Positions 17,426 to 49,672 of a DNA stretch of 64,000 nucleotides are shown here, piece after piece. The stretch is from Candidatus Gastranaerophilales bacterium. GTDB taxonomy: Bacteria > Cyanobacteriota > Vampirovibrionia > Gastranaerophilales > Gastranaerophilaceae. The notes under the pieces were generated by a model, which was not told where the DNA came from, did not search any database, and worked only from the letters and a program-made list of their open reading frames with translations. The position numbers and the translations under genes were made by a program. Where the stretch lies: NCBI GenBank assembly GCA_947624325.1, contig CANQJT010000008.1:1-64000 (forward strand), given 5' to 3'. Positions within the stretch are counted from its first letter, which is position 1. Every line of letters starts with the position of its first letter.

Positions 17426-18955
17426 TTAAATTCTAATTGAATTAGTGCTGAATTTTTTTAAATATGCAGGTATCATTAAAAAATAAAATATTCCTGTTAT
17501 ACAAATCGGTAAATAATAATCAAAATATGGTACCGGAGATGTTAAAAACATAATCATAAAATGAAACAATAAAATTAATGATAAAAACAAGTAAAATTTA
17601 TCTTTTTTATTAAAAATAACTACAAATATAAATGATAAAAATAAAGTTAATAAAACTGCAGGAAGATTATAAATAAAGATTATTTTTTTATACAAACTGC
17701 TATTATATTTATCACAATTAAAAAATGCCGGTTCTAATTTACAGATGGCGGATTTTCTTATTTTTGATACCGAATCATTACTTTCCCAATTTTCTTCCAT
17801 AGATAAATCACCATGAGATAATTTTGAATCCGATAAAAGTTTATATCTTAATTTAATAAAATTTTTAAAATTAGATTTTAATAATCTTGTAAAAATAATT
17901 AAATATTTTTTCTCATTAAAACTATTAAAATCAATCTTAAACGCATTAAATTCCATTATGTTTTGATTATTTGGGTTAGCTATAAGTTTAAGAGCTTGTA
18001 AATCATTATCATCTGCTTTTAAATTATCATAACCATTAAACATTCTCTGAAACTCAAAAAATATCGGAATCCATTTATATGACCTTTGTATATTTATACC
18101 TATATTTTGACTTACTCCGATGATAAATGATGTAGAAATTAAAATCAAAATATACAATAAACTTTTCTTCAAATTTAATTTATCTTTAAAAATAAAAAAT
18201 AGACCTAAAGGCAATAAAATAAAATATATAAATCCTTCACCCCTGTACATAGAAATAACAGAAGAAAACAAACCTGCAATAATAATATTTTTAATTGAAA
18301 TTTCAGATTTATTTAAATATTTAATGAAAATCAAAGAAACAAAGAACCAAAGTATAAAACTATAAAAACAAATTCTGGCAGGACATAAAGCTGCATTTAA
18401 TACAAAAGGAAGAATAAAAGTAATAAATGCAAGTATAAATAATTTATTATTAAATATATTTTTTAATTTAACAAAAATAAAAGAAAAAGCAGAGGAAACT
18501 AAAGTAATTTCCGTAAGACAAATTGCCGATTTATGTCTGAAAATTTGAAGGATAATTGCATAATATGCTGCAGTAATAGTATGATACCAATGTGACCATA
18601 CACCAAAGTCATATACCTTTACTTCAGACAATAAATACTGTTCGTCAACAGTAAACTTCCCCCCCCCATCAGTAAATATTAAACAAAAAAAGGTTAGTAA
18701 TATCAAAAAGTAAACTGTAAAAATTTTCAGAAAAAGTATAAATTTTTTATCTTTATTTTTAATTTTATCAAATATAAATATAGGTAATTGATAAATAAAA
18801 ATTAATAAAAACAAACTTAAAATTTTTGTAATTAAATAAAATTTATTATTTAAAACAATATCATTTATAGAATTTAAATCTAATTTTAAAGTAAATAAAA
18901 AATGTATAAATGCAAATATCAACAAAATTAATCTGAATAAAATATATTTTTTCAT
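17426..18955 (-). CDS. Polytopic membrane protein, GT-C glycosyltransferase-like, with in-frame G9 tract
   Basis: A 509-residue protein with about ten or more hydrophobic segments. After the third or fourth helix comes LIFTDGGGKFTVDEQ, with acidic residues in the first large outer loop as in GT-C (PMT/ArnT-like) enzymes, then DFGVWSHWYHT. Gly 97-99 are encoded by a run of nine G (18659-18667 on the plus strand), currently in frame; a one-base change would truncate the protein near residue 100. It starts directly after the SGNH-like gene, forming a two-gene operon. A role in modifying surface glycans is likely but inferred. Confidence 0.7.
   Translation of the reverse strand: MKKYILFRLILLIFAFIHFLFTLKLDLNSINDIVLNNKFYLITKILSLFLLIFIYQLPIFIFDKIKNKDKKFILFLKIFTVYFLILLTFFCLIFTDGGGKFTVDEQYLLSEVKVYDFGVWSHWYHTITAAYYAIILQIFRHKSAICLTEITLVSSAFSFIFVKLKNIFNNKLFILAFITFILPFVLNAALCPARICFYSFILWFFVSLIFIKYLNKSEISIKNIIIAGLFSSVISMYRGEGFIYFILLPLGLFFIFKDKLNLKKSLLYILILISTSFIIGVSQNIGINIQRSYKWIPIFFEFQRMFNGYDNLKADDNDLQALKLIANPNNQNIMEFNAFKIDFNSFNEKKYLIIFTRLLKSNFKNFIKLRYKLLSDSKLSHGDLSMEENWESNDSVSKIRKSAICKLEPAFFNCDKYNSSLYKKIIFIYNLPAVLLTLFLSFIFVVIFNKKDKFYLFLSLILLFHFMIMFLTSPVPYFDYYLPICITGIFYFLMIPAYLKKFSTNSIRI
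18659..18667. repeat. Homopolymeric C9 (G9) tract inside membrane-protein gene
   Basis: Nine consecutive C on the plus strand, coding Gly-Gly-Gly (codons 97-99) of the minus-strand gene 17426-18955. The gene is ON at this length. Confidence 0.9.
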
Positions 18956-35033: not shown

Positions 35034-35352
35034 GAAAATTTAAATATCTAAAATTTCGGTTAAATTTTTAGTTTTTCCGTTATTATAATTTTTTAACATC
35101 TTTTGCATTTCTTCTGCAACATTTTCAGGTTTTACGGTTTCGGTATCCCCAACAATATTTGGGTATTTTTTATAATCACCCAATGCAAATCTTTTATTAG
35201 ATGAACTTTTTGTGCCATTTTTTAAAATAAAATGCAGCTTTTTAATAAGACTTTCAGAAAGTTCATAATTAGCTTTATCTATAATCAGGTCTATACACTT
35301 AAAATGGTTAACGGTTTCCAAAACATCATCCACATTAACAGTATTTTTTTCA

Positions 35353-35385
35353 ATTTGCCTCGGGGGGGGGTAAAAGTGGTATCAT
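35353..35385 (+). promoter_or_regulatory. G-rich-spacer promoter module, copy 2
   Basis: TTGCCT, C, nine G, TAAAAGTGG, TATCAT. This is the same layout as copies at 1214-1247 (minus) and 36283-36314. It lies about 105 bases before the HTH gene at 35492; a closer TATAAT lies nearer that gene. The G9 sits in the spacer, so length change could also alter promoter strength. Confidence 0.4.
35362..35370. repeat. Homopolymeric G9 (C9) tract
   Basis: Nine G on the plus strand. It lies within the promoter module for the plus-strand gene and within the possible 5' coding end of the minus-strand Fic remnant. Confidence 0.9.
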
Positions 35386-35491: not shown

Positions 35492-35935
35492 ATGGATAAT
35501 AAAAAAATACTTAGACACTCTTATCAAAAGAAATTTGATGTATTAAAAAAGGCTGTTATCGAACGACCGAAACAGGGTTGGTTAAAAACAATCCGTGAGT
35601 TTTTAGGCATGACAACTACGCAATTGGCAAAAAAAATAGATGTTTCTCAGCCAAGAGTTATAAATATGGAAAAAAACGAACAAAATATTAAAATATCAAC
35701 TATGGAAAGAATTGCCGATGCTCTAAACTGTGATTTTGTATATGCATTTGTGCCAAGAGAAAATATTGATGATATTATTTATAATCAAGCAAAAAAGAAA
35801 GCCTTAAAAATAATGAATAAAGTTAACAAGAATATGGGGCTTGAAAATCAACTTACAGAAAGTGAAGATACATTGGAAGATTTAATTAAAGAACTTACGG
35901 ATAACAACATTGCAAGAATTTGGGATGAAGATTAA
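35492..35935 (+). CDS. Mobile mystery protein A (XRE-type HTH)
   Basis: A 147-residue protein. WLKTIREFLGMTTTQLAKKI with DVSQPRVINMEKNEQNIKIS is the helix-turn-helix; MERIADALNCDFVYAFVPRE is the characteristic continuation of the family named mobile mystery protein A, which is normally followed by the Fic protein called mobile mystery protein B. That partner is present here only as a wreck starting 3 bases downstream. The pair is known from mobile regions and behaves like a toxin-antitoxin-type couple by context, which is inference. This gene appears intact. Confidence 0.82.
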   Translation: MDNKKILRHSYQKKFDVLKKAVIERPKQGWLKTIREFLGMTTTQLAKKIDVSQPRVINMEKNEQNIKISTMERIADALNCDFVYAFVPRENIDDIIYNQAKKKALKIMNKVNKNMGLENQLTESEDTLEDLIKELTDNNIARIWDED

Positions 35936-36915: not shown

Positions 36916-37032
36916 GTATTACTTCAATATAGTAAAGATATTATTATAAAATTAAATTTCATCTTTATATTTTTATTGCAGAAGTATATTCAATTTGATA
37001 TAATTAGTTAAAAATAAAGGAAATAAAGTATT

Positions 37033-37753
37033 ATGAATAAAGTGAATACCCCCCCCGAGCGGATTTTGCGTAGACTGGAGTCGTAGCAAACCGGAGCGAA
37101 GCCGAAGCGCTGAGGCAGAAGTTTTGCAACAACGAAGTGAACAAAATCCAAGACAAAGAGCTTTAAAAGGCTTTACATTATCCGAAGTTCTCATTACTCT
37201 GGTTATTATTGGTGTTATCTCTGCGATTGCTATTCCTAATGTTTTAGTTAACTCTCGAAAGAATGAAGCAAGTGCAAGATTAAAGAAATTTTATTCAGAA
37301 ATGAATAAAGCTGTTCTTATGGCAAAAGCTCGAGGAAATGATTGGGAATTTTGGGCTGACTCACCTAATAACGATATAGAAAGTTATGCAAAACTGTATC
37401 TTTTACCTTATCTTAATTATACAAAAACAGAAAAAATAAATGACTCATTATACATATATTTAACAGATGGTAGTTATCTTTACATACATAGCGGTGATTG
37501 TATGGATTTAAAATATGATTTAAACGGACTTAAAAAGCCAAATGTAGCAGGAAGGGATATATTTACATTTTTATATTGTCCGTATTCAATGTCTCAATAT
37601 CTTGCTACAGGGCAAGTAATACCTGTCTTAAATAAAGAAATGCCAAGATCTACCGCCATTGAACTATGTAAAACAACAAATCAATTATATTGCTCAGGTG
37701 TTTTATATTATGACGGTTGGGAGTTTAAAGACGATTATCCTCACAGAATTTAA
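37033..37753 (+). CDS. Type IV pilin-like protein 1, phase-variable candidate (frame interrupted at C8)
   Basis: The prepilin signature GFTLSEVLITLVIIGVISAI (G|F cleavage, Glu at +5) is followed by a pilin body with paired Cys and the end YYDGWEFKDDYPHRI. The ATG at 37033, with a ribosome site and the same first codons as pilin 2 (MNKVNTPP), reads through C8 into a stop at 37084. With one C fewer the frame is open across 37057-37123 to the pilin, giving about 239 residues with an unusually long leader of 47. A TTG at 37124 is the only internal start near the signature and has no ribosome site. It is probably a surface or secretion pilin, OFF here. Confidence 0.8.
37049..37056. repeat. Homopolymeric C8 tract after pilin 1 start
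   Basis: Eight C at codons 6-8 of the ORF from ATG 37033. C7 or C10 would place the ATG in frame with the pilin body. Confidence 0.9.
37057..37140. repeat. GC-rich insert in pilin 1 leader
   Basis: GC-rich stretch with GCGAAGC-type repeats, coding an Arg-, Ser- and Glu-rich segment (WSRSKPERSRSAEAEVLQQR). Pilin 2 has only 7 codons (TALKRNK) at this place. The stretch has no stop in the pilin frame. It resembles the block at 2064-2215. Confidence 0.4.
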
Positions 37754-37818
37754 TTTATAAATGGAAAAATATCTGACAAAATTAAAATGTAGATTGTATC
37801 CGATAATTAACAAAAAAA

Positions 37819-37846
37819 CCTCCTTAAATTTTAAGGAGGTTTTTTT
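37819..37846. terminator. Bidirectional terminator between pilin 1 and dnaK
   Basis: The same 21-base palindrome as at 36889-36909, with A7 before and T7 after, serving the convergent pilin 1 and dnaK genes. Confidence 0.9.
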
Positions 37847-37860
37847 GTTGATTAATTATA

Positions 37861-39803: not shown

Positions 39804-41384
39804 TTATGGCTTTGTATTTAATAAAAAATTATTATCCGTTAATCTGTTAAACTTTATGTTATTTAATTCTTCTTCGGTAAAAATACCCCCCCCCATTGCT
39901 TTATATTCTTTATCTACTATTTCTTTATCCGTATATATTACTTTTTGTGTAATATTCATCCCTATGTTATTTAAAAATATTATGTATGTATTATCAGGAT
40001 ATATAACATTTTTTTCATTTTCTTTTGAATTATAAAATAAGCCCCAATTTAACGGATTGTTAAAAATTTCATAATCCAAATAAATTGTCTTATTTTTTAA
40101 ATTAGCAAGTCTTATTATTTTTTCCGATTTATAATGAGTTATTTTTAAAGGAATTAAAATATTTTTTATAAAATTATTATAGAAACTGATATTTTTATTT
40201 ATTAATAGTATTGAACTTAAAAGTACAACGATAAAAACTAAATTCACAATGTAATTTTTTAGAATTTTATTTTTTAAAATTACACTAAATAAATATAAGT
40301 TAAATGCTAAAATTATCATTTCATATGTGGTTTGAATGTCGGGATGTATTATATAGAAGCTGTTATTTGTATTTGGATAATACCCTAAACCTATTAATGA
40401 AAAAAAGAATATTAATAATCCTAATAAATAACTTATAACAATTTTTATACTATTTTTTTCATTTGTTTTGAAAAATAATACTGCAATTTGAGATATTAAT
40501 AAAACATATGCAATAATATGTTTCATTAATAAGTATTTAATATATTCTTTAATAAATTCAGGAAGTATTTTAAATATATTAGTGAAAAAATTTAAATCTA
40601 TAATAAGATTTGGTGTTTTTCTGATAAATGCTCCGAATTTAAATAAAAATAAGCTTGAGGAAATGCTGAAAATTAATATTATAACCAGTAAATAAAATCT
40701 TTTATTTGAGATTTTATTTTTATCAAATAAAGATAAAAAAGTATAAATTAAAGTACCTAATATTACAAGTATACAAGTCAATTCACAGGATAAACAGCAA
40801 AGAATAGTTAAAAGACATATTATAAAATAATCTTTATATGTAATTTTATTTAAAGTTTTTATTAAATAGAAAAATAATAAAAGAAATATAAAAATAGGCA
40901 TATTTAACCTGAAAAATCCATCATAAGTGAATATCATCAGATTTGATTTTTGTAATGCATACATATAAAAAGAAATTATAAATAAATAAACTGTTATAGG
41001 CAGTTTATAAATTATATTATCAGATTTATTCAGAAACATAATTTTTATAGGTATAAAAGAAAAAATAAGAATTAAAAAAGATTCTATAAACGAAAAATAT
41101 TCGCTCTTAAAATCACTCGGATGGATATTCAAAATTGGCGGAATATATGTACCAAGTAATTTTTCCAAGATAGAAGGTATTATAAGTCCGTTTGCATATG
41201 CAGAATTAAAAAAAATTTTTATAAAGGATTCATGTAAAGTAGTATCTGTATCATCAGCAAAAATAAATGAATGCTTAAATAAATTTAAAATTATAAAAAA
41301 TAAAATCAATAAAACAGGAATATTTATAAATAAGTTTATTTTTTCATTTTTAAAAGAATAAAAAATATTACGGATATTTTTCAT
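39804..41384 (-). CDS. Polytopic membrane protein with C-terminal G9 tract
   Basis: A 526-residue protein with about ten hydrophobic helices. It is a paralogue of 58753-60288: both have an acidic first outer loop (FADDTDT versus CFNDDDFF), ILNIHPSDF/LLNIHPDDF after the second helix, and similar ends (FTEEELNNIKFNRL versus FSENELKELKFARL). The fold suggests a GT-C-like or polysaccharide-related enzyme. Codons for AMGGGIF near residue 497 contain nine G (39886-39894), in frame now; slippage would replace only the last 30 or so residues. Confidence 0.7.
   Translation of the reverse strand: MKNIRNIFYSFKNEKINLFINIPVLLILFFIILNLFKHSFIFADDTDTTLHESFIKIFFNSAYANGLIIPSILEKLLGTYIPPILNIHPSDFKSEYFSFIESFLILIFSFIPIKIMFLNKSDNIIYKLPITVYLFIISFYMYALQKSNLMIFTYDGFFRLNMPIFIFLLLFFYLIKTLNKITYKDYFIICLLTILCCLSCELTCILVILGTLIYTFLSLFDKNKISNKRFYLLVIILIFSISSSLFLFKFGAFIRKTPNLIIDLNFFTNIFKILPEFIKEYIKYLLMKHIIAYVLLISQIAVLFFKTNEKNSIKIVISYLLGLLIFFFSLIGLGYYPNTNNSFYIIHPDIQTTYEMIILAFNLYLFSVILKNKILKNYIVNLVFIVVLLSSILLINKNISFYNNFIKNILIPLKITHYKSEKIIRLANLKNKTIYLDYEIFNNPLNWGLFYNSKENEKNVIYPDNTYIIFLNNIGMNITQKVIYTDKEIVDKEYKAMGGGIFTEEELNNIKFNRLTDNNFLLNTKP
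39886..39894. repeat. Homopolymeric C9 (G9) tract near 3' end of membrane-protein gene
   Basis: Nine C on the plus strand, coding the Met-Gly-Gly-Gly region of the minus-strand gene 39804-41384. It is in frame here. Confidence 0.9.
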
Positions 41385-48818: not shown

Positions 48819-48979
48819 AAAAAATATAAAGTTTTTAACCTGATACTTCGTTTCTGTTTCACTAACTTCAACTAAGGGCTTCGTAACTCGCCTGAAGGCT
48901 CAGACAGACGAAGCCTAGATGTTGTTTTAGTAAGTGAACCTACGAAACTATGTATATGGTTAAAAACTTTATATTTTTT
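48819..48979. repeat. Nested inverted-repeat element
   Basis: Outer arms 48819-48840 and 48958-48979 are a perfect 22-bp inverted repeat. Inside, GGCTTCGT (48877-48884) pairs with ACGAAGCC (48908-48915), and inside that GCCT-GA-AGGC (48890-48899) forms a third hairpin. The core is GC-rich relative to the neighbourhood. It lies between the orphan permease and pilin 2. It could be a transcribed structured RNA, a double terminator or a small non-autonomous mobile element. Confidence 0.65.
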
Positions 48980-49044: not shown

Positions 49045-49672
49045 ATGAATAAAGTGAATACCCCCCCCCACGGCGCTAAAACGCAATAAAGGCTTTACAT
49101 TATCCGAAGTTCTCATTACCCTCGTTATTATTGGTATTATCTCAGCGATTGCAATTCCTGCTGTTTTTGCAAATTCAAGAAAACAGGAAACGGTTGCGAG
49201 AATTAAAAAAATGTATTCGGCTTTAAATAATGCAAATCTAAGAGCAAAAGCAGACGGAAATGATTGGGAATTTTGGGCTGAGTCAGATTCTCCTAATCAG
49301 GATGCTGAATTTTTTACAAGACAATACTTATTACCCTATTTTAATTATATGAAAACAGAAAGAATAGGAGGCATTTTTTATGTATATTTGACTGACGGCA
49401 GCTATATGTATGTTCAGAACGGCGGATGTATGGATTTCTATTTTGATGTCAATGGAAAGAAAACCCCAAATATAGTTGGAAAGGACATATTTGATTTTAT
49501 ATATTGTTCTTATAATTATCCCGATACACATATAAAAGGCAGAATATCGCCCCATTTATTTGAAGACGGCTCAAGAGAAATAGCTTTGGAACATTGTAAA
49601 GCTGCTCCTCACATGTGTACAGAATTACTATACTATGACGGTTGGGAATTTAAAGATGATTACCCGTATTAA
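49045..49672 (+). CDS. Type IV pilin-like protein 2, phase-variable candidate (frame interrupted at C9)
   Basis: The ATG at 49045 (ribosome site AAAGGAAA, extended -10 TGGTATAAT upstream) begins MNKVNTPPP, reads C9 and then stops at 49087. With one C fewer it would read MNKVNTPPTALKRNKG, then FTLSEVLITLVIIGIISAI, a textbook prepilin with a 16-residue leader and Glu at +5, giving about 208 residues. The body (NDWEFWAESDSPNQD, YVYLTDGSYMYVQNGGCMDF, YYDGWEFKDDYPY) matches pilin 1. The part from Met at 49211 is open but lacks the signature, so it would not be exported. OFF in this sequence. Confidence 0.82.
49061..49069. repeat. Homopolymeric C9 tract after pilin 2 start
   Basis: Nine C directly after MNKVNT. 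C8 restores the pilin frame. Confidence 0.92.

Follow-up and report, generated by a model that had tools for sequence, protein, structure and literature searches.

In Neisseria gonorrhoeae, the type IV pilin gene pilE contains a C8 run, and translation is stopped when one C is gained or lost (PMC5610331). The opa genes of Neisseria constitute a surface-protein family in which each gene carries its own CTCTT slippage repeat in the leader-coding region (PMC3960869), and the genome of Campylobacter jejuni NCTC11168 contains 29 poly-G/C loci of 7 or more bases, with lengths of G8 to G12 (PMC4965091). Homopolymeric tracts near the 5' ends of genes have also been described as a means of inactivating genes (PMC2831843). 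According to a 2025 review, it is a major open question why genomes rich in phase-variable loci seem confined to pathogens, which may reflect a database bias (PMC11868660). No report of phase variation in Melainabacteria/Gastranaerophilales was found in the literature that we searched, a search that was not exhaustive.

The sequence analysed here, referred to as the window, is the whole stretch of 64,000 nucleotides of contig CANQJT010000008.1 from a Candidatus Gastranaerophilales bacterium (assembly GCA_947624325.1). It contains a prepilin gene, pilin 1, which probably belongs to a group of accessory prepilin genes of Gastranaerophilaceae that are phase-variable, OFF by default and switched by slippage. 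Its likeness to gonococcal pilE lies in a C8 run within a pilin gene and in the fact that a change of one C decides translation. In pilE, however, the run is located in the semivariable part of one normally ON gene, and silent pilS cassettes are used by recombination, whereas the Gastranaerophilales prepilins are many complete genes, normally OFF, whose tract lies in the leader, close behind the start codon. No homology between the two switches has been shown. As in opa, a surface-protein family has its own slippage repeat in each leader, but the opa repeats are pentamers in genes for outer-membrane proteins, while those described here are mononucleotide C/G tracts in prepilin genes with a strong OFF bias. 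With C. jejuni they share a low-GC genome and many C/G tracts in surface-structure genes; the differences are another phylum, up to 179 tracts of at least 8 bases per species, prepilins as a main target and an organism that is not a known pathogen. The survey of gene inactivation recorded chiefly poly-A/T tracts no longer than 7 bases and found long poly-C/G to be rare in general, in contrast to the long C/G tracts found here near the 5' end. Apparently new are the lineage, the scale, the default-OFF bias, and the fact that entire prepilin families carry the tract behind their start codons.

All features of pilin 1 lie on the forward strand. An extended -10 promoter element, TGaTATAAT (36996 to 37004), and a ribosome-binding site, AAGGA (37017 to 37021), were read in the sequence, with the ATG start codon 11 nt further on (37033 to 37035). 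The C8 tract (37049 to 37056), which is the proposed slippage switch, lies 16 nt after this well-placed ATG. With eight C residues the frame is closed by an in-frame TAG (37084 to 37086), and the gene is therefore OFF as assembled; with one C fewer or two more (C7 or C10), a single open frame of 239 codons extends to the stop at 37753. Both the tract and its effect on the frame are shown. The mature pilin, with the N-methylation motif GFTLSEVL and the stop codon, occupies positions 37169 to 37753 according to an N_methyl match and an alignment, and an intrinsic terminator follows on its 3' side (37807 to 37851). The criterion for a prepilin motif (basic leader, G or A, F-T-L-x-E, hydrophobic helix) was met, with an N_methyl score of 20.3 bits, slightly below the Pfam cut-off of 21.2. 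A simple sigma-70 scan, which requires a -35 element, did not list the extended -10; by eye, similar elements were also seen 5' of pilin 2, pilin 3 and the copies in genome G003.

The initial annotation, made from the sequence alone, had placed the ATG at 37033, with a ribosome site and an extended -10 upstream, the C8 tract, and a stop at 37084, and had stated that removal of one C opens a frame through GFTLSEVL to 37753; all of this held on direct reading. Its statement that poly-C slippage switching is known in Neisseria and Campylobacter agrees with the literature (PMC5610331, PMC4965091). It had also claimed that pilin 2 shares the first codons and the tract; the codons were confirmed as identical, and the tract of pilin 2 is C9.

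Pilin 2, also on the forward strand, starts with an ATG at 49045 to 49047, its first codons being those of pilin 1 (the first 16 nt are identical). It is OFF as assembled, and its C9 tract (49061 to 49069) would open the frame at C8 or C11. The mature protein, for which a 50-residue N-terminal helix plus a beta-sheet is predicted, is encoded, together with the stop codon, at 49091 to 49672; in the structure model (pLDDT of 83), a helix from residue 4 to 54 is followed by six strands forming a beta-sheet domain. The predicted model thus has the order expected of a type IV pilin, a long helix at the N-terminus and then a beta-sheet domain; assembly into pili is inferred. A PDB fold search with the predicted pilin 2 structure gave no match at an E value of 0.001 or better. 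A third copy, pilin 3, located near the end of contig C12, carries a C10 tract and opens at C8 or C11; in the assembly, all three genes are out of frame. The closest named pilin matches came from Candidatus Gastranaerophilales genomes from samples labelled Lapin.

The leader of pilin 1 contains a GC-rich insert (37061 to 37149, forward strand) with inverted ends GGATTTTG/CAAAATCC, which is absent from pilin 2. Within it lies a TTG (37124 to 37126) in the pilin frame, with GAGG upstream, an alternative start that would bypass the tract. Related inserts with inverted ends GGATTTTG(C)/(G)CAAAATCC were found in pilin 3 (L025, about 1391 to 1503) and in L132 (279 to 390), and in all three carriers the insert is stop-free in the pilin frame. 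It resembles, possibly, a small inserted element absorbed into the coding sequence. A high-copy repeat was considered and rejected, since the genome holds a single further good copy. Upstream of tract-bearing prepilins (48848 to 48935; L025, about 1640 to 1770), GC-rich intergenic stretches with many CGAAG/CTTCG motifs were also observed, and these may be dispersed repeats.

Long C runs are far more frequent in the window than expected. Overlapping C7 matches numbered 14, against 0.82 expected from shuffled sequences. Of the C runs, 37 have length 4, 4 have length 5, one has length 8 and three have length 9, with no runs of 6 or 7; the lack of runs of 6 to 7 where runs of 8 to 9 occur points to maintained tracts. 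Besides the pilins, three genes of the window, all on the reverse strand, carry such tracts. A Fic-like gene (35040 to 35385) has a C9 tract (35362 to 35370) 15 nt after an ATG, is OFF, would open at C8 and may be phase-variable. Two genes without a Pfam match are ON: one of 509 amino acids (17426 to 18955) with an internal G9 tract (18659 to 18667), and one of 526 amino acids (39804 to 41384) with a G9 tract near its 3' end (39886 to 39894). The small Fic-like gene adjoins a gene whose start is at 35492 and whose product is helix-turn-helix-like.

A similar picture was obtained for the genome as a whole (1.98 Mb, 20 contigs), which contains 62 C/G runs of 8 or more bases, all 8 to 11 long, versus about 0.9 expected at 30% GC. 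Among the 55 tracts with enough flanking sequence, 41 lie clearly in coding frames. The non-pilin genes include sugar epimerases, glycosyltransferases, a polysaccharide pyruvyl transferase, an FkbM methyltransferase, PMT_2-type membrane transferases, hexapeptide acyltransferases, radical SAM proteins and several unmatched membrane proteins. These functions, mostly related to surface glycans or membrane proteins, are the usual content of contingency loci.

The arrangement seen in pilin 1 is a conserved module, formed by a ribosome site, an ATG, a short segment, a C or G tract, a basic leader and G/A-FTLxEV, and it was found in more than 100 prepilins from 32 species, both in the same genus and in other genera. 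The leader tract reads MNKVNTPPTALKRNKG in pilin 2, MDKRNTPPEALKRRNG in G003 and MNRPNTPPESIKRNKG in G017, and it is present in many more families. A pattern combining tract and prepilin motif matched in 32 of 239 family genomes, with up to 26 matches in one, while the reversed control pattern gave about 5 matches in total. A scan of viral contigs for the pilin start yielded no match. In the fetched loci, the segment between tract and motif was stop-free in the pilin frame in 116 of 119 instances, whereas each of the other frames was interrupted in 77, so that the leader downstream of the tract is constrained as coding sequence in the pilin frame. In 105 of 115 relatives, the tract is preceded by an ATG with a comparable ribosome site; an in-frame ATG, GTG or TTG between tract and motif is present in 12 of the 115 (ATG in 3), and pilin 2 has none.

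Selection on the coding frame is likewise shown. The dN/dS values of the mature domains of OFF copies, calculated for the closest pairs, ranged from 0.16 to 0.42, and the domains were intact, from which we conclude that the OFF copies are functional genes under purifying selection. The tract itself differs in length between loci with nearly identical flanks: C9 in G017 versus C8 in G015 (98% identity), C10 versus C9 in two copies of G000 (95%), G11 versus G10 in two prepilins of G019 (92%), and C11 or C12 in near-identical prepilins of one geometry in G175. These differences are shown for near-identical copies and one cross-species locus, and not for the pilin 1 locus within its species; G015 and G017, as a close pair, have few tracts in common and rendered one informative difference. 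The initial annotation had proposed comparing the tract in related genomes, and the comparison revealed a tract conserved after the start codon across species, with lengths that differ between near-identical copies. Four criteria for a contingency locus were satisfied: a tract far beyond chance, a one-unit change that switches the frame of a complete gene, length variation among copies, and surface genes as carriers. A fifth, reversible high-frequency switching in a clonal population, is inferred.

A marked excess of OFF copies was observed among the prepilins. Of 108 scored copies from 32 species, 99 were OFF and 9 ON, while random frames would leave one third ON. In the five genomes scored for both classes, prepilins were 4 ON and 36 OFF, versus 53 ON (56%) and 41 OFF for the other tract genes (Fisher p of 3e-7). 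The commonest tract length differs among species, being 9 in G008 and G094, 10 in G063, G083 and G071, and 11 to 12 in G175, and in each of them the open prepilin frame is set off that length. Because the prepilin copies share ancestry, their counts lack independence, and G008 paralogues dominate them. When averaged per species, the ON fraction was 0.11 (p of about 0.007); the excess is shown, but it is weakened by shared ancestry. G019, for its part, shows no OFF bias (4 ON and 6 OFF, close to random).

In the mechanism that we propose, the C tract that follows the start codon would gain or lose a C by slipped-strand mispairing during replication, and only one tract length in three would join the ATG to the leader and mature pilin. 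With the commonest length of the species out of frame, each pilin would be OFF in most cells and made by rare slip variants. Selection would favor OFF in most cells, the population would carry many pilus types and single cells few, without recombination, and all copies would appear OFF in a consensus assembled from such a population. Slippage in living cells is inferred, since neither reads nor a second genome of the same species were available; for the same reason, mixtures of C7, C8 and C9 could not be seen. The N_methyl scores slightly short of the Pfam cut-off and the absence of a significant PDB match also count against the proposal. The poly-C switch proposed in the initial annotation is thus supported but not proven, every sequence test that could have broken it having gone its way. 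Any benefit is also inferred, and evasion of phages or of host antibodies, or changed adhesion, may be considered. A bolder reading, on which we would not commit ourselves either way, is that complete prepilin genes form a large repertoire dispersed over the genome, from which single pilins are drawn by random slippage, each gene being kept OFF by a leader tract so tuned that the length commonest in the species is out of frame. If true, a gut commensal among the non-photosynthetic cyanobacteria would achieve antigenic variation with neither recombination nor invertible promoters; a default-OFF prepilin set, if real, would represent a novel mode of deploying a repertoire of surface antigens.

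Programmed frameshifting or transcriptional slippage could be invoked instead. The tract would then be fixed, and slipping of the ribosome or of RNA polymerase would yield a constant small share of product from an OFF gene. In favor of it, nearly all copies are out of frame, and the shift needed is often the same within a clade (+1 at C10 in G063, G083 and G071; -1 at C9 in G008). However, pilins 1 and 2 need one C fewer and pilin 3 one more, the direction differs among other relatives too, the G175 copies of one geometry carry both C11 and C12, and C9 or C10 tracts leave many other genes of these genomes in frame. The criterion of a fixed tract and a fixed direction across homologues was not met, and because the direction needed differs between copies and species we consider this explanation unlikely. 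Low-level leakage by slippage on top of phase variation may nevertheless occur.

The two remaining alternatives are less probable still. Translation might begin downstream, at TTG 37124 in the case of pilin 1, making the tract irrelevant to expression. This is backed by the in-frame TTG itself, with its GAGG, and by an internal in-frame ATG giving a short leader in pilin 3 and L132. Against it stand the scarcity of in-frame starts past the tract among the relatives and their absence from pilin 2, the ATG and ribosome site that precede nearly all tracts, and the segment directly after the tract, stop-free in the pilin frame only. The initial annotation had named this TTG as a possible true start, which is still tenable for pilin 1 itself, but most relatives have no internal start, and as a general explanation it is very improbable. 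We give equally little credit to the view that the OFF copies are decaying pseudogenes or that the tract lengths are assembly errors. Nearly all copies are indeed out of frame in the assemblies, and a few loci of G019 and G103 have suspicious runs of 14 to 52, but the mature frames of about 200 codons are intact with dN/dS of 0.2 to 0.4, the leader is stop-free in the pilin frame, and genes with C9 or C10 are in frame in the same assemblies. Phase variation by slippage thus remains the preferred reading.

Tract numbers were compared across the sampled family, which we take to be Gastranaerophilaceae, as inferred from the order name. The median among its 170 species was 16.5 tracts (8 or more bases) and the maximum 179, whereas 22 genomes of other families in the order had a median of 2.5 and at most 15. 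The C. jejuni figure of 29 was reached by 66 of the 170 species, loci being counted there from 7 bases and here from 8. An uncultured gut-commensal family with up to 179 tracts per genome makes the question of restriction to pathogens testable with existing stool metagenomes. Species of the window's own genus have either dozens of tracts or almost none. MutS and MutL are present in tract-rich and tract-poor species alike, and mismatch-repair loss as the cause of the tracts was rejected on these grounds; since both kinds of species occur in a single genus and carry MutS/MutL, they lend themselves to a natural comparison. A range from 0 to over 100 tracts between species of one genus was also noted in the genomes of genus g1 and family f1, unrelated to whether MutS or MutL is present.

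An unusual expansion of prepilins was observed in G008 and G019, with 74 and 63 prepilin-like matches, respectively (L134-L153, L164-L173, L181-L250). In the tract-bearing prepilins of G008, the leader mostly ends in A or S, and not in G, before FTL. At about 3090 to 3130 of L138, in the same genome, an orphan prepilin start (ATG, 26 nt, G9), with stops behind it, lies between two divergent prepilins and may be a remnant of gene turnover.
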